Origin: Cellvibrio sp. pealriver
GTDB taxonomy: Bacteria; Pseudomonadota; Gammaproteobacteria; Pseudomonadales; Cellvibrionaceae
Direction: 5' to 3'
DNA length: 64,000 nucleotides
NCBI RefSeq assembly: GCF_001183545.1
Contig: NZ_KQ236688.1
Span: 3,794,395 to 3,858,394, forward strand
Position numbers and translations under genes: made by a program. Positions 25,188-35,777 of this stretch are shown piece after piece (within the stretch, counting starts at the first letter, position 1; every line of letters begins with the position of its first letter). Under the pieces are notes generated by a model. The model saw only the letters and a program-made list of their open reading frames with translations. It searched no databases and was not told the origin of the DNA.

Positions 25188-26321
25188 ATGGAAACCGTAT
25201 CGACAATGACTGCACCGGAAACCGATAAAAAACAGCCCGCATCATTGGCTGAACCTGCCAATCCATTTTTACCGGAGTTGTGCACTAGCCAATCGGTATT
25301 TTTGCTGGTGCTGGTGGCGGAGTTACTGGCGCTGTTGCTGACCATCAGTGCATCGTCCGGGTTGCAGCATTTTGACTGGGACAAGCTCGCGCTGATCTCG
25401 GTGCAAGTGCAATGGGTGGTGGTATTCAGTGCGATTGCGCTGTGCCGTTTGCGTTTCTGGCTCGCGCGGCAAAGCCATGTACGTGCTGGTTGTACCAGTT
25501 ATGCCTTGGTGTTGTTTATTACACTGGTGCTGAGTGTGTTGGGGCAGTGGATAATCTATGGCGTTAGCGGCATGGCATTTATTGAATATCAAGATTTTGA
25601 ATTTGATGGCTGGCAATTGCTTAACAATATGGCCATCGCTGCAATTCTGTCGGGTATTTTGCTGCGCTATTTATATTTGCAGCAACAGCTGCGCAATCAA
25701 CAACAGGCTGAAATGCAGGCGCGCATACAAGCATTGCAATCGCGCATTCGTCCGCACTTTTTATTTAACAGCATGAATTCCATCGCCAGTTTGATTGCTA
25801 CAGATCCGGATACCGCAGAGCGGGTGGTGGAAGATTTATCGGAATTGTTCCGCGCCAGTTTGGCGGAGCCGAGTTTGATTCCGCTTGAGCGTGAATTGGA
25901 GTTGTGCAAACACTATCTGGATATAGAGCAGCTGCGCCTTGGTCGGCGTTTGCAGTTGGACTGGCAAATTGGCAATTACAACAAAGAGATAAAAATCCCC
26001 AGTTTGATGATGCAGCCTTTAGTCGAGAATGCCATTTTTCACGGTGTAGAACCTTTGCCCAAGGGCGGAAAAATCACGGTCAAGGTTTCGCAGAACGATA
26101 AGCAGCTCAGTATCGTCATCAGCAACCCTTACTTGCTGGTGAAAAAAAATAATCACCAGGGCAGTGGCTCGCAGCGCCATAGTGAGCAAAAGCATAATCG
26201 TATGGCGCTTGATAATATTCGCCGCAGGCTCACCGCGCACTTCGGGTCGGCAGCGCGGTTATCCAGCAGTGCAGAGAATGGCATTTTTACGACTTATATT
26301 TTTTGTCCTTTGACGGTTTGA
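25188..26321 (+). CDS. algZ: LytS/AlgZ(FimS)-type membrane sensor kinase
   Basis: This 377-residue protein has four hydrophobic segments (about 33-165) and then a His_kinase domain with RIRPHFLFNSMNSI (His190) and N-box PLVENAIFHGVEP. The glycine lid is reduced to HNRMALDNIRRRL, as in AlgZ/FimS of Pseudomonas, an atypical kinase working with AlgR. The argH-algZ-algR order supports orthology. Known partners control type IV pili, twitching and, in Pseudomonas, alginate. Here a role in surface behaviour is inferred. algR follows after 58 bases. Confidence 0.88.
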   Translation: METVSTMTAPETDKKQPASLAEPANPFLPELCTSQSVFLLVLVAELLALLLTISASSGLQHFDWDKLALISVQVQWVVVFSAIALCRLRFWLARQSHVRAGCTSYALVLFITLVLSVLGQWIIYGVSGMAFIEYQDFEFDGWQLLNNMAIAAILSGILLRYLYLQQQLRNQQQAEMQARIQALQSRIRPHFLFNSMNSIASLIATDPDTAERVVEDLSELFRASLAEPSLIPLERELELCKHYLDIEQLRLGRRLQLDWQIGNYNKEIKIPSLMMQPLVENAIFHGVEPLPKGGKITVKVSQNDKQLSIVISNPYLLVKKNNHQGSGSQRHSEQKHNRMALDNIRRRLTAHFGSAARLSSSAENGIFTTYIFCPLTV

Positions 26322-26379
26322 TGTTTGCTTTTTTTCATATCGATTAAAACGGAAAACAATAACAACCAGAGACATAACA

Positions 26380-27120
26380 ATGGATATTTTAATTGTTGAT
26401 GATGAGCCTCTTGCGCGGCAGCGGTTGCTGCGCATGGTGGAAAAAATTGAAGGTTTTTCTGTGGTGTCCGAGGCGGATAATGCAGAAGATGCGCTGATTG
26501 CCATTATCGCGCATGACCCGGATATTGTCTTGCTGGACATTCGTATGCCCGGGCGCGATGGCTTGAGCCTTGCGCAGGATATTGCCGAATTGGAGGATGC
26601 GCCTGCCGTTATTTTTTGTACCGCATTTGACCAATACGCACTCGATGCGTTTGGCACCAATGCCGTCGGGTATTTGCTCAAGCCGGTCAAAGCCGAACAG
26701 TTATTGCAGGTATTAGAGAAGGCCAAAAAGCTCAATAAAATCCAACGTGTCGCTGCACAAAAAAATCCTGCGACGGCACTAGAAACCCAGCGTACCCATA
26801 TCACCGCCAAAACACGTCGTGGCGTGGAGCTTATTCCGCTGGAGGATGTTCGCTATTTTCTTGCTGATCACAAATATGTCACTGTCTATCATCGCAACGG
26901 CGAACATTTGCTGGATGAAACCTTAAAGGAATTGGAAGAGGAATTCAGTGGGCGTTTTGTGCGCATCCATCGCAATTCATTGGTGTCGATCAAACACATC
27001 GAGGCGCTGGAGCGCAATGCGCAGGGGCAATATCATGTGCGTTTGGCCGATATCGAGTTGCGCCCGATTATCAGCCGCCGTCATGTGAGTGATGTAAAAG
27101 AACTGTTAAAAATAATATGA
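26380..27120 (+). CDS. algR: LytTR response regulator AlgR
   Basis: This 246-residue protein has an N-terminal receiver domain (DDEP acidic pocket, phospho-acceptor D53 in LLDIRMPGRDG, conserved Lys in LLKPVKAEQ) and a C-terminal LytTR DNA-binding domain (about 145-245; ALERNAQGQYHVRLADIELRPIISRRH in part). It is the probable partner of AlgZ. In Pseudomonas, hemC follows algR; here the next gene is a convergent DUF6445-like gene whose stop lies one base away, with no terminator hairpin between them. Confidence 0.9.
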   Translation: MDILIVDDEPLARQRLLRMVEKIEGFSVVSEADNAEDALIAIIAHDPDIVLLDIRMPGRDGLSLAQDIAELEDAPAVIFCTAFDQYALDAFGTNAVGYLLKPVKAEQLLQVLEKAKKLNKIQRVAAQKNPATALETQRTHITAKTRRGVELIPLEDVRYFLADHKYVTVYHRNGEHLLDETLKELEEEFSGRFVRIHRNSLVSIKHIEALERNAQGQYHVRLADIELRPIISRRHVSDVKELLKII

Positions 27121-27121
27121 G

Positions 27122-27829
27122 TTATTCAATAAAGCTAAAAAAACTGTTTACTGTCAATCGTCCTTGCTTGGGGTTTTCACTTAACCCCAATTGTGCGCTG
27201 ATATCTCCGGAGTGCAGTTGGTTGCTGCGGTATATCACCGCACGGTTAAATGCGACAGGTACCTGCGCGATCCGCTCGAATAAATGTGTATCGCCATTGA
27301 TGTAATTAAATCGGGTTTGTTGTTCCTCCATCACTTCCTGCTTGAGAATTTTAAAATAATTGGTTAATCGCTCTTGTGTGATACTTTCATGGCCGGTGCT
27401 GCGGTGGCGATAAAAAGAGGTGCCACCGTAAGAATTAGGGCACAGATAGTGCACCATTGCAAAATGTGATGGATCATGAGTGTCGATATGTGGCACCGAC
27501 TGTATGGGGCGCAATTTTTCTGGTGGTGTGGTAGTGAGTGAAAAAGCGCACAGACTCTGCTGCACTGCGCGCGATGCATCAATTGAAAATACTTCGCGCA
27601 CCAGTGAGGTGATTGCATTCAAACTCTGTGCAGGATAATTCCCATCAACCTGTTTGCGTAGGCCAGGATAAAAATCACTGGCTTGTGCGATGAATGGTTC
27701 GCCTGAGCAAGCTTGGTCAGTTAATGCATTTGGTGTGTTACAAAAATTATCGATGATCAAGAGTGGGTTTTTTTCATGTCCGATCAGTTGGACATCTATT
27801 TTCCATTTTTCTTGCGAGTAAAGTGTCAT
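27122..27829 (-). CDS. DUF6445-like protein with 2OG/Fe(II)-oxygenase-like motif
   Basis: This 235-residue soluble protein is of the family found beside tryptophan-halogenase-like genes in TonB receptor loci. I see H114-x-D116 (VPHIDTHD), then MVHYLCPNSYGGTSFYRH, then H206 (SNQLHSGDI) and R224 (KQGRLTVN). That HxD...H...R order and spacing match the metal and co-substrate ligands of 2-oxoglutarate/Fe(II) dioxygenases; the assignment is inference. Its ATG overlaps the stop of the SapC gene (TGATG), so translation is coupled. It is last gene of the halogenase-SapC-DUF6445 unit and convergent with algR. Confidence 0.75.
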   Translation of the reverse strand: MTLYSQEKWKIDVQLIGHEKNPLLIIDNFCNTPNALTDQACSGEPFIAQASDFYPGLRKQVDGNYPAQSLNAITSLVREVFSIDASRAVQQSLCAFSLTTTPPEKLRPIQSVPHIDTHDPSHFAMVHYLCPNSYGGTSFYRHRSTGHESITQERLTNYFKILKQEVMEEQQTRFNYINGDTHLFERIAQVPVAFNRAVIYRSNQLHSGDISAQLGLSENPKQGRLTVNSFFSFIE

Positions 27830-28542
27830 CAGTTTGTACCATGCCCCAATCGTATATTCTTTTTTTGGATCAACGAATAAATCTGCCCGAGTGATGCCAG
27901 CTGGGTATAGATGGGTTGTAAATATCCCTCACGCTGAAGCTCACTTAATTGCGTTGGGTCAAGTTGTGTGAGTCGCTGTTCATTAATGGTATATAAACCT
28001 TGTACGCGCTGTTGCTGGTTATTGCCAAAACGGATGTCCAGCGCCATAGGCTCAAGTAAATTCAGTGCCAGTAAATGTTGAATAAATGCATGGGTTTGCG
28101 TTTCACCATCAAGCAATTGTGCAAGGCGTGCTTTAATTGTGTTGAGATAGTTAGTCTCTTTTCCGAACGCATCAAAAATTGCTTCACCCTGACCTGAGTG
28201 CAAGGTGGCGCTGTCTGTATCGATACAAATAAGTGTTTGGCCGTTTTCCTGTCCGATAAAAAACGGCTGGCGGGTAATGTTCAGTGGTGTATAAATTCCC
28301 TGCCATTGATTGTCTTGCCAAAATAAATTTTCACCTTGTTCAAATCCCAAAAGTGCAACACACACAAAGTTGCCATTCTCGCTGTTTTTGGTAAACACAA
28401 TAGGGTACTGAACGACCAGGCGCAGGAATTCACTGAGTACCACCGGTACCATATTGTTAGCTGCACCGAGCGACTCAACCAGTGTGGTATCTACGCGCAG
28501 TTGTTGGTGAAGTTGATTATGCAGTGCAACAAAGTGAGTCAT
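27829..28542 (-). CDS. SapC-like protein
   Basis: This 237-residue cytoplasmic protein is related to SapC of Campylobacter S-layer loci: MVPVVLSEFLRLVVQYPIVFTKN, VCVALLGFEQGENLF, QWQGIYTPLNITRQPFFIG and the C-terminal LDPTQLSELQREGYLQPIY are the usual blocks. The molecular role of the family is unknown, but SapC-like genes recur next to halogenase-like genes and TonB receptors. It lies 24 bases after the halogenase and shares the TGATG junction with the DUF6445 gene. Confidence 0.83.
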   Translation of the reverse strand: MTHFVALHNQLHQQLRVDTTLVESLGAANNMVPVVLSEFLRLVVQYPIVFTKNSENGNFVCVALLGFEQGENLFWQDNQWQGIYTPLNITRQPFFIGQENGQTLICIDTDSATLHSGQGEAIFDAFGKETNYLNTIKARLAQLLDGETQTHAFIQHLLALNLLEPMALDIRFGNNQQQRVQGLYTINEQRLTQLDPTQLSELQREGYLQPIYTQLASLGQIYSLIQKKNIRLGHGTN

Positions 28543-28566
28543 GGGGTTTTCCGTACTGAATAATGA

Positions 28567-30123
28567 TTAGATGGTTTGCAAGCCGTGCAAATGAATTTTA
28601 TTAAGCAGCTCGCGGTTACTGGGCAAGCTGCGTAATACCTGCTCGATATTCTTTTGGTTTTTATCAAACTGCTCACGCGCTACTGCATGGTCGCGTAGCA
28701 AATGCTGGCTGCATGAGTAGTCAGTTTCAAAGCCCATACCATAGAGCACATATTGGTAACTTGCCGCAGGAAATACCTCGTTGTTGCTGGTGAAGTCCTG
28801 ATCGCCTGGTGGGTGATAACGCCACAGTTTTATGAGTTCCTGCAAGCTGTCGGGAATAGTGGATGGATCGCGGTTATCAACCCAGAAAGCATTGTCTGTG
28901 CGTTTGCTTAAAATATAATGTAATTTTAAAAAATCGATAATACGCGCCCAGCGATAGGTAAATGTGTCGTTGAATCGCTTGGCAACAATGTCCATGACAT
29001 CGCGACAGGCGGGCAATTGTTCCGCAATCATACTGGCTGATAATTCCACCAATACAATGGCCGATGCTTCCAGCGGTTCCAGAAAACCTGCCGATAAGCC
29101 TACCGCGACGCAGTTGTTTTTCCAGAAGAGTTTGCGGTGACCGCAGTGGATTGGAATTTTGCGCACGGATAAATTATTAAAGGTATGGCCAACATAGGAT
29201 TGCAAACGCTCCATCGCTTGCTCTTCTGTTGTGTGGCGACTGGAATACACATGGCCTACACCACGGCGATGTACCAAGCCTATATCCCAAATCCAACCCG
29301 CATCCTGGGCGGTTGAAATCGTGTGTGATGCAATAGGGGCATCTTCTGTTTCATAGGGCACTTGAACGGCGAGCGCACTGTCAATAAATAATACGTCTTT
29401 GTAATCGACAAACGGTACCTGCAAATGTTGGCCTAGCAACAGCGATTGGAAACCGCTGCAATCGATAAATAAATCGCCGCTGATCACGCCAGCTTGTTCA
29501 GTAGTGACGGAAAGTATGTCGTCATTGTCGGCCAGGTTAACGCCCGTAACATCGGCGAGTACATGCTGCACACCTAATTTTTCACTACAGTGTTTTTGCA
29601 AAAATACAGAAAATTTTCCAGCGTTTAAATGATAAGCATAATTGGCTACGGCGTTGAATTCCGGTGTCGTAATCATTTTTGGGGCAAGCCCTGATTCACA
29701 AAGACTTTCCTGAAAACACGTTGCAGCAGAAAAAGATTGTTGGAGTTTTTGTTGGTTGCGCAGCTCTTGCCAGTGTGCAGCCATATTGGTTTTGCCAAAC
29801 CCCTGCGGCAGCATTAATGGATGATAATAAAAATCATCCGGCGTGCCTGTTACCCAGCGAGCGAATTTTGCGCCTTGTTTAAAGGATGCATCGCATTCGC
29901 GGATAAAATCGGTTTCAGAAATACCCAATTTCATCAGGGTGCTGCGCATCGTGGGCCAGGTGCCTTCACCTACACCAATGATGGGAATATTCGGTGATTC
30001 AATGAGAGTAATTTTGAGGTTGTTGCCCGTGGCGGTGCGATGGTGTGCAGCAATACGGCCTGCAGTAATCCAACCGGCAGTACCGCCTCCAACAATCACA
30101 ACAGAGGTAATTTTATTATTCAT
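28567..30123 (-). CDS. Flavin-dependent tryptophan-halogenase-like protein
   Basis: This 518-residue FAD enzyme (PF04820-type) has GGGTAGW (12-18) for FAD, GVGEGTWPT (50-58), and Lys82 in SFKQGAKF at the place of the catalytic lysine of flavin halogenases. The WxWxIP box reads WIWDIG (277-282), with Gly for Pro, followed by RRGVGHVYSS. The subfamily accompanies TonB receptors in carbohydrate-scavenging bacteria; its substrate is unknown, and halogenation is not demonstrated by sequence. A flavin reductase is not encoded nearby. It begins 155 bases after the receptor, past a hairpin that may attenuate read-through. Confidence 0.87.
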   Translation of the reverse strand: MNNKITSVVIVGGGTAGWITAGRIAAHHRTATGNNLKITLIESPNIPIIGVGEGTWPTMRSTLMKLGISETDFIRECDASFKQGAKFARWVTGTPDDFYYHPLMLPQGFGKTNMAAHWQELRNQQKLQQSFSAATCFQESLCESGLAPKMITTPEFNAVANYAYHLNAGKFSVFLQKHCSEKLGVQHVLADVTGVNLADNDDILSVTTEQAGVISGDLFIDCSGFQSLLLGQHLQVPFVDYKDVLFIDSALAVQVPYETEDAPIASHTISTAQDAGWIWDIGLVHRRGVGHVYSSRHTTEEQAMERLQSYVGHTFNNLSVRKIPIHCGHRKLFWKNNCVAVGLSAGFLEPLEASAIVLVELSASMIAEQLPACRDVMDIVAKRFNDTFTYRWARIIDFLKLHYILSKRTDNAFWVDNRDPSTIPDSLQELIKLWRYHPPGDQDFTSNNEVFPAASYQYVLYGMGFETDYSCSQHLLRDHAVAREQFDKNQKNIEQVLRSLPSNRELLNKIHLHGLQTI

Positions 30124-30277: not shown

Positions 30278-33200
30278 TTAAAAACTCGCTCTCACACCCA
30301 GTGCCCAACGGCGACCACTGTCTTCAACCAATAATAAATGGTTTTCATAGCGGCCACGTTTATGCACATATTCCTCAGTGAGATTAATACCTTCAACGAA
30401 CACGGTTATTTCATCGGTGATGTCATAACTTGCACTCAAATCCCATTGTTCGTAATCCTCTACGAGTGTTGGGCCGTTGCCGTTGCTTTGAGTCAGTGAT
30501 TGCACAAATTCGCCGCGTTGGTTATACGCCAAACGAATTTGCACCGGGCCTTGTTCATAAAAACCAACCAGGTTTGCGGAGTCGCTCAATCCGGTGAGAG
30601 CAAATACCTGGGTGACATCAGCGGGGTCGAGCTCCGCATCACTATCAACCAATGTGGTGTTAAACATTACACCAAAACCGGTTTCACCAAAGGTGTGTTG
30701 TATGCCGAGTTCCCAACCGTCCACGGTGGCATCTTCACCATTATTAGGAAGGGTATTTTTAAATACCGCGACTGCATCGTTGGCATCTGCAGCGCCAGTG
30801 TCACTGCCGGTGGATGGATCGGTTAACAAACTGCCGTTAGGCAATGCGAAAGTTTTATCGGCAATCGAGTTAACGATAAAGTTCGCCACATCTTTTTTGA
30901 AATAACCAGCCGACACATAACTCGCTTCGTCGTAATACCATTCCCAACTCAAATCAAAGTTATCTGATTCGAACGGTTTCAGTGCAGCGTTACCACTGGT
31001 TGATGTGAGGTTACCTCCTTGACGTGTTGTGGTAATTACGGTGACGGGTGCCATGCTGGTGAGTGTCGGACGGGTCAAGCTTTTTGATGCAGCCGCGCGT
31101 ATAACCATGTCATCAGTAATATCGAGTTTGATGCTCATATTTGGCAGGATTGCATCGTAACTGTTATCGACATTGATCGCCTGTGCTGAACCAAATTCGG
31201 CGAGCATTTCGGTTTCATCTAAAATGCGCAAGCCAGTTACCGGCGCTTCGGTTCCTGTCACAGTGACATCGGTAGATTCAACGCGCACGCCGCCAATTGC
31301 ACTGACCGGCATACCACTTAAATCACCTGCGAATTCCGATTCCAAATAAAACGACAAGGTCTCCTCTTCAACCACAAAAGAATTGTCGCGTTTAACGGCA
31401 TCAAAATTTTTGCCGCTGGTGCTTTCGAGATAAGCAAATTGTTCTTCGCCATCGTGCGCTAACCATTTGGTTGGCATGCGGCCGCTGCCACTTACGTCGC
31501 CAAGGAAATCACTGCCTGCATCAAAAATATATTGCATGTCGGCAGGAATAACCGGTGAGTCAGGGTAGCCGCAATAAGTACAGTGAATGCCGACGCCTTC
31601 GTTATCCCAGCGATCCAATGCTTTTTCTTCACTTGAGAACATGCCGCCGAATTTTACTTTTACCAAGCCTGAGTCGCTGCCTTCATCCCAAGTACCGTCC
31701 ATTTTAAATTGGTCAACCTGGTCATCTACCGCCCAACCGCGACGCAACATTACGTGTGCGCGGCTGTTGTTTTTATCGAGAAGGTCACCGACACCTGCTG
31801 GTGCAACATAATTTGGCGCACTTGGATCGCGATAGGCGGTGCCATCCAATTCTTGCTGGCCAGAGAAAATGTTTGGATTTGCCGTTTCAAATTCACTGGC
31901 ATAAGGAAGGATGTTGTCATCCACCTGGAAGCGCACGCGGTTGGCATATCCAATCAGCGATAACTGATCGCCGCCGCCATTGTTTGCAGCGCGTTCGGCG
32001 CTGGATGTGGTCGCATCAAAATTCAAATTTAATTTGTCGTTCACTTGCCAGTCGGCATTGATGGCAAATAGCGATGTTTTGGTGAGACGATCAAATTTTT
32101 TAGCGTGCATGTCAGTGGCCAAACCCACTTCCTGACGCAGGTCAATCACGGTGCCATTTTCATCGGTTACGGCATCGGTGATGTTAGGCGCAGTGAACCA
32201 GTGGCCGTAAGACAGAGCATTGGTTTCAATATCAAAATCGGAATAGATTGCATCGGTAGTGATTGTCAAATCATCAGTCGCTGCGAATTGCAATACCAGT
32301 GACGCGTTTGTGCGGGTGCGTTCTTCAAACGTGACTTTATGGTCGTAGTTGCGCGGCGAAAAAATAGTAGTGCCTGCAGGAACGCCTGCGCCGCCATTTA
32401 ATTCACTGGTGGGAATACCTACGTTTTCCAGCCAGCCATCCATTTGCGCCTGATTCAAGCGTGTGTCCCGCTCTTGATGTGAAACGGCGAGCAGTGCGCC
32501 AAATTTTCCATCGTTAAATACATTGCTTACCAAGCCTGATACTTGCGGTGTTGTTTTTTCACTGTTTTCTTCCAGTGCTGCTTTAATACTACCGGCTACT
32601 TTGAAATCGCCAATATCAAAAGGGCGCGCGGTTTTTACGTTGACGGTTGAACCAACACCACCGGATTGCATAGTGGCCGTTGAAGTTTTGTGAACCTCTA
32701 AACCACTTACTAATTCAGACGCAACAGTATCAAAACTGAATGCGCGCGATAAATTTTCGGTTGCCATTTGGCGGCCATTGATTAATACCGTATTAAATTC
32801 CGGGCCGAAACCGCGCACGGTAATTAATTGGCCTTCACCGCCTGAGCGGTCAATCGATACGCCAGTAATACGCTGTAGAGATTCTGCGAGGTTGGTGTCG
32901 GGAAACTTACCTATATCTTCCGATGAAATGGCATCAACAACACCGCCCGCGGCACGTTTAACATCCATCGACCGCTGCAAACTGCCGCGAATACCGGTCA
33001 CCATTAATTCTTCAACTTGTTCAGTTGCACCACTGGGTGTAGCTGGGGATTGTGCAATAGCCTGTGCTCCGGCCATGGAGGTAATAATGCCGATGACGGC
33101 ACTGAGTTTATTTTTATTGTGCATTGAATCCAACTCCTCAAGAGACTGATGGGTCGTGATGGTCAGCAGACCTTTCTCGTCAATCTTTACACTGAGGTTG

Positions 33201-33532
33201 GTATTCGCAACGAGGCGCATGGCAGCCTCTTTGATGGAATAACGTCCGGCTAATCTATTCGTGGTAATTTCCATTGCATCATCAAATGGAAATATCAGCG
33301 TTATATCAGCTTGTTCGGCAAACTCAGTGAGCGAAAGATCTGCCCGTTGCTGAGGTATGTTGAACTGGATAATTTTATCGAGATTATTTTTTTCTGCCCA
33401 TGCAGACAGCGGTGTGCCTACCGCGAGGGCAAAAATTAATAAACGAAAAATCGCCTGCTCGTTTACATCAGCCGCAAGCATCTTGCTTGCGTGCTTAATA
33501 GACGAGGCGCGATTTTTTTTCCGCCATGCCAT
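30278..33532 (-). CDS. TonB-dependent receptor with N-terminal STN module and an internal second signal peptide
   Basis: From ATG 33532 the protein has 1084 residues. A signal sequence (ending about residue 46, LSAWA) precedes an STN signalling domain (FNIPQQRADLSLTEFAEQA to LLTI, about 55-125), the part that contacts FecR in transducing receptors. The chain then meets MHNKNKLSAVIGIITSMAGA at residue 137, a second typical signal peptide with AQA cleavage site, then the TonB box (EELMVTG), plug (TVRGFGPEFNTVLINGRQ) and beta-barrel ending in Phe. ATG 33124 of that second start has GAGGAG nine bases upstream. Longer (33676) and shorter (33481) starts are possible. It is downstream of fecI-fecR. 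Confidence 0.88.
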   Translation of the reverse strand: MAWRKKNRASSIKHASKMLAADVNEQAIFRLLIFALAVGTPLSAWAEKNNLDKIIQFNIPQQRADLSLTEFAEQADITLIFPFDDAMEITTNRLAGRYSIKEAAMRLVANTNLSVKIDEKGLLTITTHQSLEELDSMHNKNKLSAVIGIITSMAGAQAIAQSPATPSGATEQVEELMVTGIRGSLQRSMDVKRAAGGVVDAISSEDIGKFPDTNLAESLQRITGVSIDRSGGEGQLITVRGFGPEFNTVLINGRQMATENLSRAFSFDTVASELVSGLEVHKTSTATMQSGGVGSTVNVKTARPFDIGDFKVAGSIKAALEENSEKTTPQVSGLVSNVFNDGKFGALLAVSHQERDTRLNQAQMDGWLENVGIPTSELNGGAGVPAGTTIFSPRNYDHKVTFEERTRTNASLVLQFAATDDLTITTDAIYSDFDIETNALSYGHWFTAPNITDAVTDENGTVIDLRQEVGLATDMHAKKFDRLTKTSLFAINADWQVNDKLNLNFDATTSSAERAANNGGGDQLSLIGYANRVRFQVDDNILPYASEFETANPNIFSGQQELDGTAYRDPSAPNYVAPAGVGDLLDKNNSRAHVMLRRGWAVDDQVDQFKMDGTWDEGSDSGLVKVKFGGMFSSEEKALDRWDNEGVGIHCTYCGYPDSPVIPADMQYIFDAGSDFLGDVSGSGRMPTKWLAHDGEEQFAYLESTSGKNFDAVKRDNSFVVEEETLSFYLESEFAGDLSGMPVSAIGGVRVESTDVTVTGTEAPVTGLRILDETEMLAEFGSAQAINVDNSYDAILPNMSIKLDITDDMVIRAAASKSLTRPTLTSMAPVTVITTTRQGGNLTSTSGNAALKPFESDNFDLSWEWYYDEASYVSAGYFKKDVANFIVNSIADKTFALPNGSLLTDPSTGSDTGAADANDAVAVFKNTLPNNGEDATVDGWELGIQHTFGETGFGVMFNTTLVDSDAELDPADVTQVFALTGLSDSANLVGFYEQGPVQIRLAYNQRGEFVQSLTQSNGNGPTLVEDYEQWDLSASYDITDEITVFVEGINLTEEYVHKRGRYENHLLLVEDSGRRWALGVRASF
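33134..33139 (-). promoter_or_regulatory. Internal Shine-Dalgarno GAGGAG for a nested receptor start
   Basis: GAGGAG sits nine bases before the in-frame ATG at 33124 and also encodes the Glu-Glu of the linker between STN and receptor. It is the best ribosome binding site seen for this gene; upstream candidate starts (33676, 33532, 33481) have none comparable. Confidence 0.6.
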
Positions 33533-33878: not shown

Positions 33879-34922
33879 TTATTTGGCGCGCAGGCGGATT
33901 TTATTATTACCTACACGCTCATTGTGAATATTGAAATTCTGTTCCAACGCCGCGAGCAAACCATCAACATCACCCGCTTTAAATAAACCGGCAATGCGCT
34001 CTTGTTTGATACTGTCATCAGTCACTTCAAATTGAACGGCTGTGTAGCGGTTAATTTCTACCAGTGCATCTTCAAGTGTTTCCCCGCGAAAAACCAGATT
34101 GCCCTGACGCCAACTTAATTGCGCGGCTATGTCATTGTCATCGGCTTTGGCGATAGTTTCCTGCGCTGAGCCAAGCACTACTTTTTCGCCTTTTGCAACA
34201 GCCATTGCATTGGTGGGCAAGCGTTTTGCGACAATTTTTTCAATTGCCGGTTGCGTCTCCTGTTTGGCCACCAATACTTTTCCATCAGTCACTAGCAGTG
34301 CAACTTCGTTGTCGTTGCGGATGCGTACATTAAATGCGGTGCCCACTGCTTGCACAACCTTATTGCCCGCAACAACACTTAGCGGACGATTTTTGTCGTG
34401 CGCGACCTCAATATTTAATTCGCCGCGCTCCAATAAAAACAAACGATGCTCATCGGTGTATTTTACTGTCACGCGGCTGTTGGTGTTGAGTACCAATTGT
34501 GAGCCGTCGGGCAGGTTGACACTGGAATGCTCGCCGACAGCGGTTTCATAAACGCCATCAATAGATTGTTGTTGAAATGGAGAGATGCTCAACAATTGGC
34601 TGTGAAGTTGTGGATTCAGGTTCCAGCCAATCACCATTGCAACCAACACAAAAGATGCTGCGACAGCGCCGTAAAAACGCGGTTTGTACGAAGGTTGCTG
34701 TGTCGGCGCTTGAAATAAATCGGCAAGGCGCGCGAGGCTGTCCATTTTGTCCCACAGCTCGGCCATTTCAAATAATACGGCGCGATGTTGCTCGTTTGCA
34801 GCGAGCCATTGGGCTAATTCCTGCTGTTCCGTTGCTGTTAATTCGCGGTCGATACGTGCAATCCATAGGCTCGCTTGATCATAAATCTGTTCGCGGTTGG
34901 GGAACTCAATAATATTACTCAT
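33879..34922 (-). CDS. fecR: FecR-type anti-sigma / sigma-regulator protein
   Basis: This 347-residue inner-membrane protein has a cytoplasmic N-terminal DUF4880-type segment (ASLWIARIDRELTATEQQELAQWLAANEQHR in parts, about 15-50), one membrane helix at about 88-104 (VAASFVLVAMVIGW), a periplasmic FecR domain (VGEHSSVNLPDGSQLVLNT, RGELNIEVAHDKNRP, VQAVGTAFNVR) and a C-terminal STN-like domain from about residue 270. It would receive the signal from the receptor's STN module and control the ECF sigma factor encoded just upstream, whose stop overlaps its start (ATGA). Confidence 0.93.
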   Translation of the reverse strand: MSNIIEFPNREQIYDQASLWIARIDRELTATEQQELAQWLAANEQHRAVLFEMAELWDKMDSLARLADLFQAPTQQPSYKPRFYGAVAASFVLVAMVIGWNLNPQLHSQLLSISPFQQQSIDGVYETAVGEHSSVNLPDGSQLVLNTNSRVTVKYTDEHRLFLLERGELNIEVAHDKNRPLSVVAGNKVVQAVGTAFNVRIRNDNEVALLVTDGKVLVAKQETQPAIEKIVAKRLPTNAMAVAKGEKVVLGSAQETIAKADDNDIAAQLSWRQGNLVFRGETLEDALVEINRYTAVQFEVTDDSIKQERIAGLFKAGDVDGLLAALEQNFNIHNERVGNNKIRLRAK

Positions 34923-35557
34923 GATTTGCTCCTCTCGTGCGGAGCCGGATGTTGTTGCATGGACTGCTTGTCGCCATTGTGTTTTTGGCTACTGTGTTGC
35001 TGTTTGTTGTGCTGCAAAGCAGCCATAAACTGCGTGCAGCGTTTGATGCCTGTTGCTATGTGTTTTTCTACCGTGTTTTCACTGATATCGAGTTGCAGTG
35101 CGATTTCTTTTTGCGAATAGCCATAGACTTTTTTCAATACAAACGCTTTGCGGCACTGCAGTGGCAGCTGCCTGACAGCCTCACAAAAAAAACCAAACTC
35201 CTGGTTAGCGGCAACGCGGTCAAAGGTTTCATCGGCACGTGTGATATAACCTGCCGCTTCCAATGTTTGCTCCGGATCATCGTCCATACTCACGCTTAGC
35301 CGTGTTTCGGCGCGCTTTAAATGATCCAGCGCCAAATTGTGCGCAGTGCGCAGCATAAATGAGCGTGGAAACTGGATCTGGTCCGGTTTCTCTACCTGAC
35401 AGACCCGCACATAGGTCTCCTGCACTATGTCTTCTACTTCTTTCGGCGGTACCAGCCGCGACACAGCGCGCGCAAGTGAGCCGCGCAGGGCGATAAATAG
35501 AGTGGCGATGCTGTCGTTGCGCATGGGTTGATTCGTTATTTTTGGATTATTCGACAT
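34919..35557 (-). CDS. fecI: ECF sigma factor, FecI family
   Basis: This 212-residue protein has region 2 (VEDIVQETYVRVCQ, FPRSFMLRTAHNLALDHLKR) and region 4 (LPLQCRKAFVLKKVYGYSQKEIALQLDISENTVEKHIATG), with a hydrophilic His/Gln-rich tail of about 35 residues. FecI-type factors direct transcription of the linked TonB receptor gene once the receptor binds its substrate. The order fecI-fecR-receptor, with a four-base overlap between the first two, supports this. The start is not fixed: Met12 (MRNDSIATLF) would give 201 residues. Confidence 0.94.
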   Translation of the reverse strand: MSNNPKITNQPMRNDSIATLFIALRGSLARAVSRLVPPKEVEDIVQETYVRVCQVEKPDQIQFPRSFMLRTAHNLALDHLKRAETRLSVSMDDDPEQTLEAAGYITRADETFDRVAANQEFGFFCEAVRQLPLQCRKAFVLKKVYGYSQKEIALQLDISENTVEKHIATGIKRCTQFMAALQHNKQQHSSQKHNGDKQSMQQHPAPHERSKS

Positions 35558-35777
35558 GGACTCTTGCCATTACTGTAATTTCCTTACAAGCCATGACGAT
35601 GCTGGATGAATATTCCGCCATTCCCCGGTACAAATAAAGTAAAAAAATCCGCTTTTCGATTAGCCCAAGTGCGATACATGGCCTCCTTTCCGGTGGGTTG
35701 GAAAACACATGGTAGGTAAATGTTATAAGCGGATTAATGTCTATATCTGAATGTGCAAATAGACTTCATCATAAGCA

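Follow-up and report, generated by a model that had tools for sequence, protein, structure and literature searches.

Does a single TonB-dependent receptor gene of Cellvibrio sp. pealriver encode two exported proteins, one that senses and one that only transports? The question is raised by a 64,000-nucleotide stretch of its genome (contig NZ_KQ236688.1, positions 3,794,395 to 3,858,394; hereafter the window), in which a single open reading frame (ORF) spans positions 30278–33532 of the minus strand, where all features below lie unless stated otherwise. From an ATG at 33532 it encodes 1084 amino acids (aa): a basic N-terminus, a first signal peptide (SP1, with the hydrophobic part and an AxA-like end, ...LSAWA, at residues 27–46, 33395–33454), a signalling (STN) domain with approximate limits 33152–33394, then MHNKNKLSAVIGIITSMAGAQAIAQ, a plug and a barrel. 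The window protein matched the plug family PF07715 (64 bits) and the TonB-dependent beta-barrel family PF00593 (102 bits). Pfam gave no STN match for the window sequence on its own; PF07660 (STN) was matched at E ≤ 1 in 16 of 18 family members, and the STN family profile matched the solved signalling domains of the ferric-pseudobactin 358 receptor, FpvA, HasR, PupB, FecA and FoxA (best E 1.3e-13). An earlier note, made from the letters of the window, had proposed that an STN gene was joined here to a full receptor, that the locus may still make two products and that uptake would thereby be split from signalling. A selected internal start and Shine-Dalgarno (SD) sequence, selection on STN, split genes, and losses accompanied by replacement all support this proposal, and we consider it quite probable that one gene combines a transducer and a nested, sigma-induced plain transporter, two proteins in one frame.

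The second signal peptide predicted in the frame (SP2, MHNKNKLSAVIGIITSMAGAQAIA, 33053–33124) begins at an ATG at 33122–33124, residue 137 of the long frame. The SD sequence GAGGAG (33134–33139) ends nine bases before it, as first described, with a computed energy of −8.8 kcal/mol; the best site at any upstream start of the window gene reaches −0.6 kcal/mol, which bears out the remark that none is comparable. The nested ORF (30278–33124) would give a plain TonB-dependent receptor of 948 aa, and not 949 as the note had it. A protein search scored 7994 sequences, of which 7592 were relatives at E ≤ 1e-10; of the 121 rows formed by the best 120 relatives and the window protein, 116 covered the region, with Met at the internal position in 101, Val in 12, and Ile, Leu and Thr in one each. 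Two listed proteins, P0033 (1081 aa) and P0041 (945 aa, with the internal Met as its first residue), are seemingly the same gene, both with a 219,011-base contig, and a nested start may account for such disagreeing annotations.

Genome searches with a profile of STN plus SP2 gave matches in 61 of 144 genomes of the window's family, 122 of 295 genomes of another gammaproteobacterial family (that of G430), 10 of 274 genomes in a class sample and 48 of 299 in a phylum sample. The 270 loci contained 179 distinct STN ORFs, of which 175 were analysed; L031, L232, L260 and L270, which were shifted, stopped or decayed, were left out. A hydrophobic, signal-peptide-like segment between STN and plug, defined by a 10-residue Kyte-Doolittle mean of at least 1.7 (a cut-off of our choosing), was present in 140 of the 175 genes, so that the in-frame passage from STN into a second signal peptide, plug and barrel is not peculiar to the window. 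Outside the two home families, 21 of 22 phylum-sample loci had no such segment, in line with the expectation that transducing receptors normally have a single signal peptide and nothing hydrophobic before the plug, from which the window gene with its SP2 departs; the exception, L284, has a segment above threshold (1.76) without a start codon before it. The internal-segment arrangement, judged from these loci, is therefore lineage-specific and no general trait of STN receptors.

Upstream of the segment, 136 of the 140 genes carry ATG (117) or GTG (19), two have only TTG and two have none of these; by the same loose rule, ATG or GTG was found in 7 of 31 genes without the segment and in one of four intermediates. 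SD energies, computed with generic anti-SD letters rather than letters taken from the 16S genes of these genomes, averaged −5.67 kcal/mol at the internal start against −1.96 at 1135 in-frame ATGs elsewhere in these genes (p = 6e-49) and −3.00 in synonymous shuffles (p = 4e-23; over 79 clusters, p = 9e-14). Upstream starts in the family were also weaker than the internal site, at −3.73 for the best of any codon and −2.28 for the best ATG (93 genes having one). Codon −5 was identical in 93% of same-residue comparisons against a baseline of 43%, the highest of all columns (1140 pairs). The share of GTG among Val codons was 27% across these receptors and 40% in those whose start is GTG. Local RNA structure was weaker at the internal start (−2.2 vs −7.4 kcal/mol), to which composition contributes since the site is AT-rich (GC 0.34). 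In SP2 itself the n-region carries a net charge of +1 or more in 134 of 136 genes, and a small-x-Ala motif is likewise present in 134 of 136. These comparisons indicate that the internal start codon and its SD sequence are conserved beyond what the residues require, i.e. selected. The note had counted it against a second product if close homologues all carried the internal segment; most do carry it, and this now speaks for the short product, as the start codon, its SD sequence and the segment are for the most part retained or lost as a unit.

The long product appears to be maintained as well. The median ratio of nonsynonymous to synonymous substitution rates (dN/dS) in close pairs was 0.34 for SP1, 0.136 for STN, 0.18 for the linker with SP2 and 0.04 for the receptor, with STN below 0.5 in 59 of 60 pairs, and the SP1 hydrophobic segment was found in all 136 genes. 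By this measure STN is under purifying selection, and the pattern argues that both products are selected. Genes for a sigma factor, FecR or both lie near 23 of 26 STN orthologue loci, and the remaining three are on short contigs.

How might one gene yield both proteins in different amounts? What likely drives this, and was overlooked in the earlier reading, is a promoter-like element that lies within the long ORF, past the start which that reading assumed. Upstream of SP1, the window gene and many of its relatives share a bipartite sequence, TGGNGGAAA-N12-TCGTC. In the window this element, E (TGGCGGAAA-N12-TCGTC), occupies 33501–33526, inside the long ORF from codon 3, and a second copy with one mismatch (35595–35620) lies 37 nucleotides (nt) before the ATG of the gene for a FecI-like extracytoplasmic function (ECF) sigma factor (34919–35557; PF04542, PF08281), which adjoins a FecR-like sigma regulator (33879–34922; PF04773, PF16344). 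The only exact copy in the window genome is the one in the receptor gene. Across 15 genomes we counted 20 exact copies in 13 genomes, with 13 at the receptor, four just before the sigma gene and three elsewhere, the latter all in unrelated coding DNA of one genome (G229); otherwise each genome had 0–2 copies, at receptor or sigma gene. A reversed control pattern gave three matches. Before sigma genes, E was found with at most three mismatches at 18 of 23 loci, and with at most two at 14 of 23 against 5 of 300 random stretches. In relaxed form (T[AG]GNGGA[AT][AT]-N12-TCGTC), E lies within the ORF in 72 of 136 genes with segment and start, in one of four with the segment but lacking ATG or GTG, and in none of 35 without the segment (32 of 79 vs 0 of 30 clusters, p = 4e-6). 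In 30 of 32 clusters E and the ORF share a frame (p = 1e-12), and in 45 of the 62 in-frame cases an ATG of that frame precedes E; the ratio of nonsynonymous to synonymous differences (pN/pS) between E and SP1 separates the three frames poorly (0.70, 0.79, 0.91).

The layout of E, TGGNGGA plus 15 nt plus CGTC, resembles ECF promoters such as TGTCACA-n16-CGTC (PMC3426412). We infer that E is the promoter of the cognate ECF sigma factor, with transcription starting near 33494. Because this predicted +1 falls downstream of 33532, RNA begun at E would miss the long start; it would retain the internal SD sequence and start and, in the window, also a weak ATG at 33481. A stem search placed a short inverted repeat at 33473–33491, beginning 9 nt past TCGTC and about at the predicted +1. 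Among 70 genes such a stem begins 7–10 nt past TCGTC in 55, and has at least six pairs in 63, against 61% of simple shuffles (mean 7.7 vs 5.9 pairs). The repeat varies in sequence yet occurs in most E-bearing relatives, possibly as an RNA-stabilising 5' stem-loop. It led us to consider E as part of a structured RNA, a candidate we set aside as Rfam gave only sub-threshold matches for the window stretch. Three loci (L179, L182, L183) carry upstream of SP1 the variant TGGCGGAAA-N12-CTGTCA in place of TCGTC, possibly a promoter for a sigma factor with another −10 preference.

The earlier suggestion to look for the STN part and the receptor as separate genes proved fruitful. Three STN-less orthologues (L022, L027, L030) retain the downstream genes, with E preceding the receptor, and L022 starts with MYKKSKLASAV, homologous to the internal start. 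In the same three genomes a separate STN receptor adjoins fecI/fecR at the opposite end of the operon (L353–L355); these STN genes have a segment below threshold (1.24–1.60), no start codon before it and no E (best 8–9 of 13 positions). Our first view that STN-less orthologues lack sigma and FecR genes was thus wrong for three of four, both lying further along the region in the genomes of L022, L027 and L030. At the remaining STN-less locus, L025 (Teredinibacter), the receptor lacks E; L034, cut by a contig end, was left out of the count. On the tree, which has a midpoint root and very long outgroup branches, the STN-less label changes twice, and the STN-less state could be ancestral or derived.

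A second kind of natural experiment is the loss of the internal start. An internal start that supplies a sigma-driven plain receptor is expected to become dispensable once another gene supplies one. Four window-type genes lack it, with CTA in L158 (= L024), TTA in L028 (= L213), ATA in L217 and GGG in L150. In the first three, segment hydrophobicity has fallen (1.41, 0.20 and 0.85, respectively) and E is degraded, matching at 11, 10 and 9 of 13 positions; L150 retains both segment (2.52) and E (13 of 13), as expected of a recent loss. Each of the four genomes (G935, G886, G892, G1070) has a separate plain receptor with a perfect E 68–136 nt before its open frame, and these replacement receptors share 86–97% identity with one another. 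We compared the four with 22 genomes whose window-type gene has both ATG and a perfect in-ORF E (26 genomes in all): none of the 22 has the replacement receptor (best 43% identity), and in three of these 22 that were inspected the nearest relative of that receptor (35–37% identical to the window protein) has no E. The contrast repeats within two genera, g417 (G1070 vs G999 and G1059) and g443 (G892 vs G861). Since one pair is 97% identical between genera, the replacement receptor would seem to have spread by horizontal transfer. Loci L356, L357, L358 and L359 hold an E-led plain receptor of 1044–1055 aa, 86–97% identical across genera. Overall, a nested in-frame gene and a stand-alone gene seem to substitute for one another here.

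We propose the following circuit. A transcript from an upstream promoter would carry ATG 33532 and yield low levels of a TonB-dependent transducer with SP1 and STN, which would signal to the adjacent FecR/FecI pair. The ligand-activated sigma factor would then transcribe its own operon and also fire from E within the first codons of the transducer, giving a shorter RNA that begins past the long start. On this RNA, the internal SD sequence and ATG 33124 would initiate a plain receptor with its own signal peptide and without STN, so that induction would raise transport capacity without a proportional rise in sensors. As with the role and +1 of E, we infer from sequence comparison the promoter further upstream, the amounts of the two proteins and what each one does.

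Several observations weigh against this proposal or limit its reach. E is absent by our consensus from 64 of the 136 start-bearing genes, which would require divergent promoters, and 17 of the 62 in-frame cases lack an ATG in frame ahead of E. A scan of the upstream stretch for sigma-70-type promoters gave 4 against 3.8 expected, so that none stands out. In the window, the in-frame ATG 33481 after the predicted +1 might let the E transcript give the long form too; an in-frame ATG, GTG or TTG lies between predicted +1 and SP1 in 44 of 64 genes, and the remaining 20 have none. In six loci (L125, L127, L128, L171, L172, L176) a TTG with GGAG follows E and resembles a real long start, and there the long form may be made from the E transcript; the same subgroup has stops between E and SP1, and its TTG follows the inverted repeat. 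Folding 470 nt of the predicted E transcript leaves the internal SD sequence of the window gene largely base-paired (mean unpaired 0.16). At L355 a second E is oriented away from the sigma gene. Finally, the internal start was lost in few cases, transfer between genomes may account for the distribution of the replacement receptor, and three start-less genes of other receptor types (L202, L203, L237) fell outside the replacement comparison.

The alternative that survives best keeps two products but derives them by internal initiation on a common transcript, E being conserved as RNA or as a protein motif (W-R-K...S-S) within an extended signal peptide. E does mostly read in frame as WRK...SS, and a conserved peptide was our own first impression. 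The element, however, also precedes sigma genes at the frequencies given above and separate plain receptors, in both cases outside reading frames; its layout resembles that of ECF promoters (PMC3426412), and no credible Rfam family was found for the window stretch. We regard this alternative as unlikely. Less likely still is a single long pre-protein cut by signal peptidase at SP1 and SP2 into a soluble periplasmic STN and a plain receptor. The preserved small-x-Ala at SP2 would suit it, and so would Pseudomonas aeruginosa FoxA, whose signalling domain is proposed to be cleaved off and to protect FoxR (PMC11637429). Such cleavage leaves the selected start codon and SD sequence, E and the separate E-led receptors unexplained, and an internal signal sequence met after the onset of translocation is badly placed for signal peptidase. 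It could nevertheless happen in addition to the use of two starts.

A single long protein, in which the internal segment acts as a linker, either structural or membrane-anchoring, and in which ATG and GAGGAG simply follow from the residues encoded, seems to us improbable to a slightly greater degree. The frame is continuous, 176 of 179 distinct STN ORFs running on into the plug, and some lineages apparently make just the long form and retain the gene. Against this, the SD sequence is stronger than in synonymous shuffles, the start may be GTG as well as ATG, and the segment has lost its hydrophobicity in three of the four genes without a start codon, so the long protein seems not to need it. 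We had looked for natural splits of STN and receptor by stop or frameshift and found only L232, L260 and L270 stopped before the plug and L031 shifted inside it; there is no clean two-gene split among the stopped ORFs, because L232 and L270 look decayed and L260 belongs to a gene type without SP2. That only the short receptor is made and the STN part is a fossil or untranslated leader, as the weak SD sequences at long starts and an E transcript omitting that start might suggest, is very improbable given the low dN/dS of STN (0.136) and SP1 (0.34), the invariably hydrophobic SP1 (136/136), the frame kept from E to SP1 in 30 of 32 clusters and the sigma or FecR genes near 23 of 26 STN loci, the other three being on short contigs.

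The window locus shares with the transducers FecA, FpvA, PupB and FoxA and their FecI/FecR partners a homologous STN, plug and barrel and an adjacent ECF sigma and FecR-like gene. It differs from FecA-type transducers in the second signal peptide with its own start and SD sequence inside the window gene, and in a predicted sigma promoter that lies inside the ORF and not before it. Preceded by E, the sigma gene here apparently controls its own expression, whereas fecIR is described as lacking such autoregulation (PMC9249621). The same paper reports that FecA without its signalling domain still transports, and that an excess of free signalling domain inhibits Fec induction. Second products from internal in-frame starts are described for two-polypeptide phage endolysins (PMC9430671) and Xanthomonas HrcQ (PMC8553256); in contrast to these, both products here seem exported with signal peptides of their own, and the switch seems linked to an internal sigma-controlled promoter. 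As with FoxA, a signalling domain is parted from its receptor; there this happens by proteolysis after export (CtpA is proposed; PMC11637429), and here it would happen by choice of transcription and translation start. In open-access titles and abstract openings on internal starts, second signal peptides and internal promoters in TonB-dependent receptors, we did not recognise this arrangement, subscription papers and preprints being mostly outside that scope. Classical Fec induction makes more of the same sensor-transporter. A sensor with a separately induced plain transporter would, if true, let signalling and uptake be tuned apart, and it predicts an isoform switch. We think it likely on the whole that such a circuit parts sensor from transporter by choice of transcription start, that its feedback amplifies uptake and not sensing, and that over evolution the nested gene and a stand-alone sigma-controlled transporter gene can take each other's place.

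FecR- and FecI-like genes lie upstream of the receptor, and downstream are co-oriented conserved neighbours encoding a tryptophan-halogenase-family protein (28567–30123), a SapC-family protein (27829–28542) and a DUF6445 protein (27122–27829). This trio (27122–30123) recurs in most of 31 orthologue loci, whether STN is fused or not. Beyond it, on the plus strand at 25188–27120, lies a pair of genes for a His_kinase-family sensor and a LytTR response regulator.

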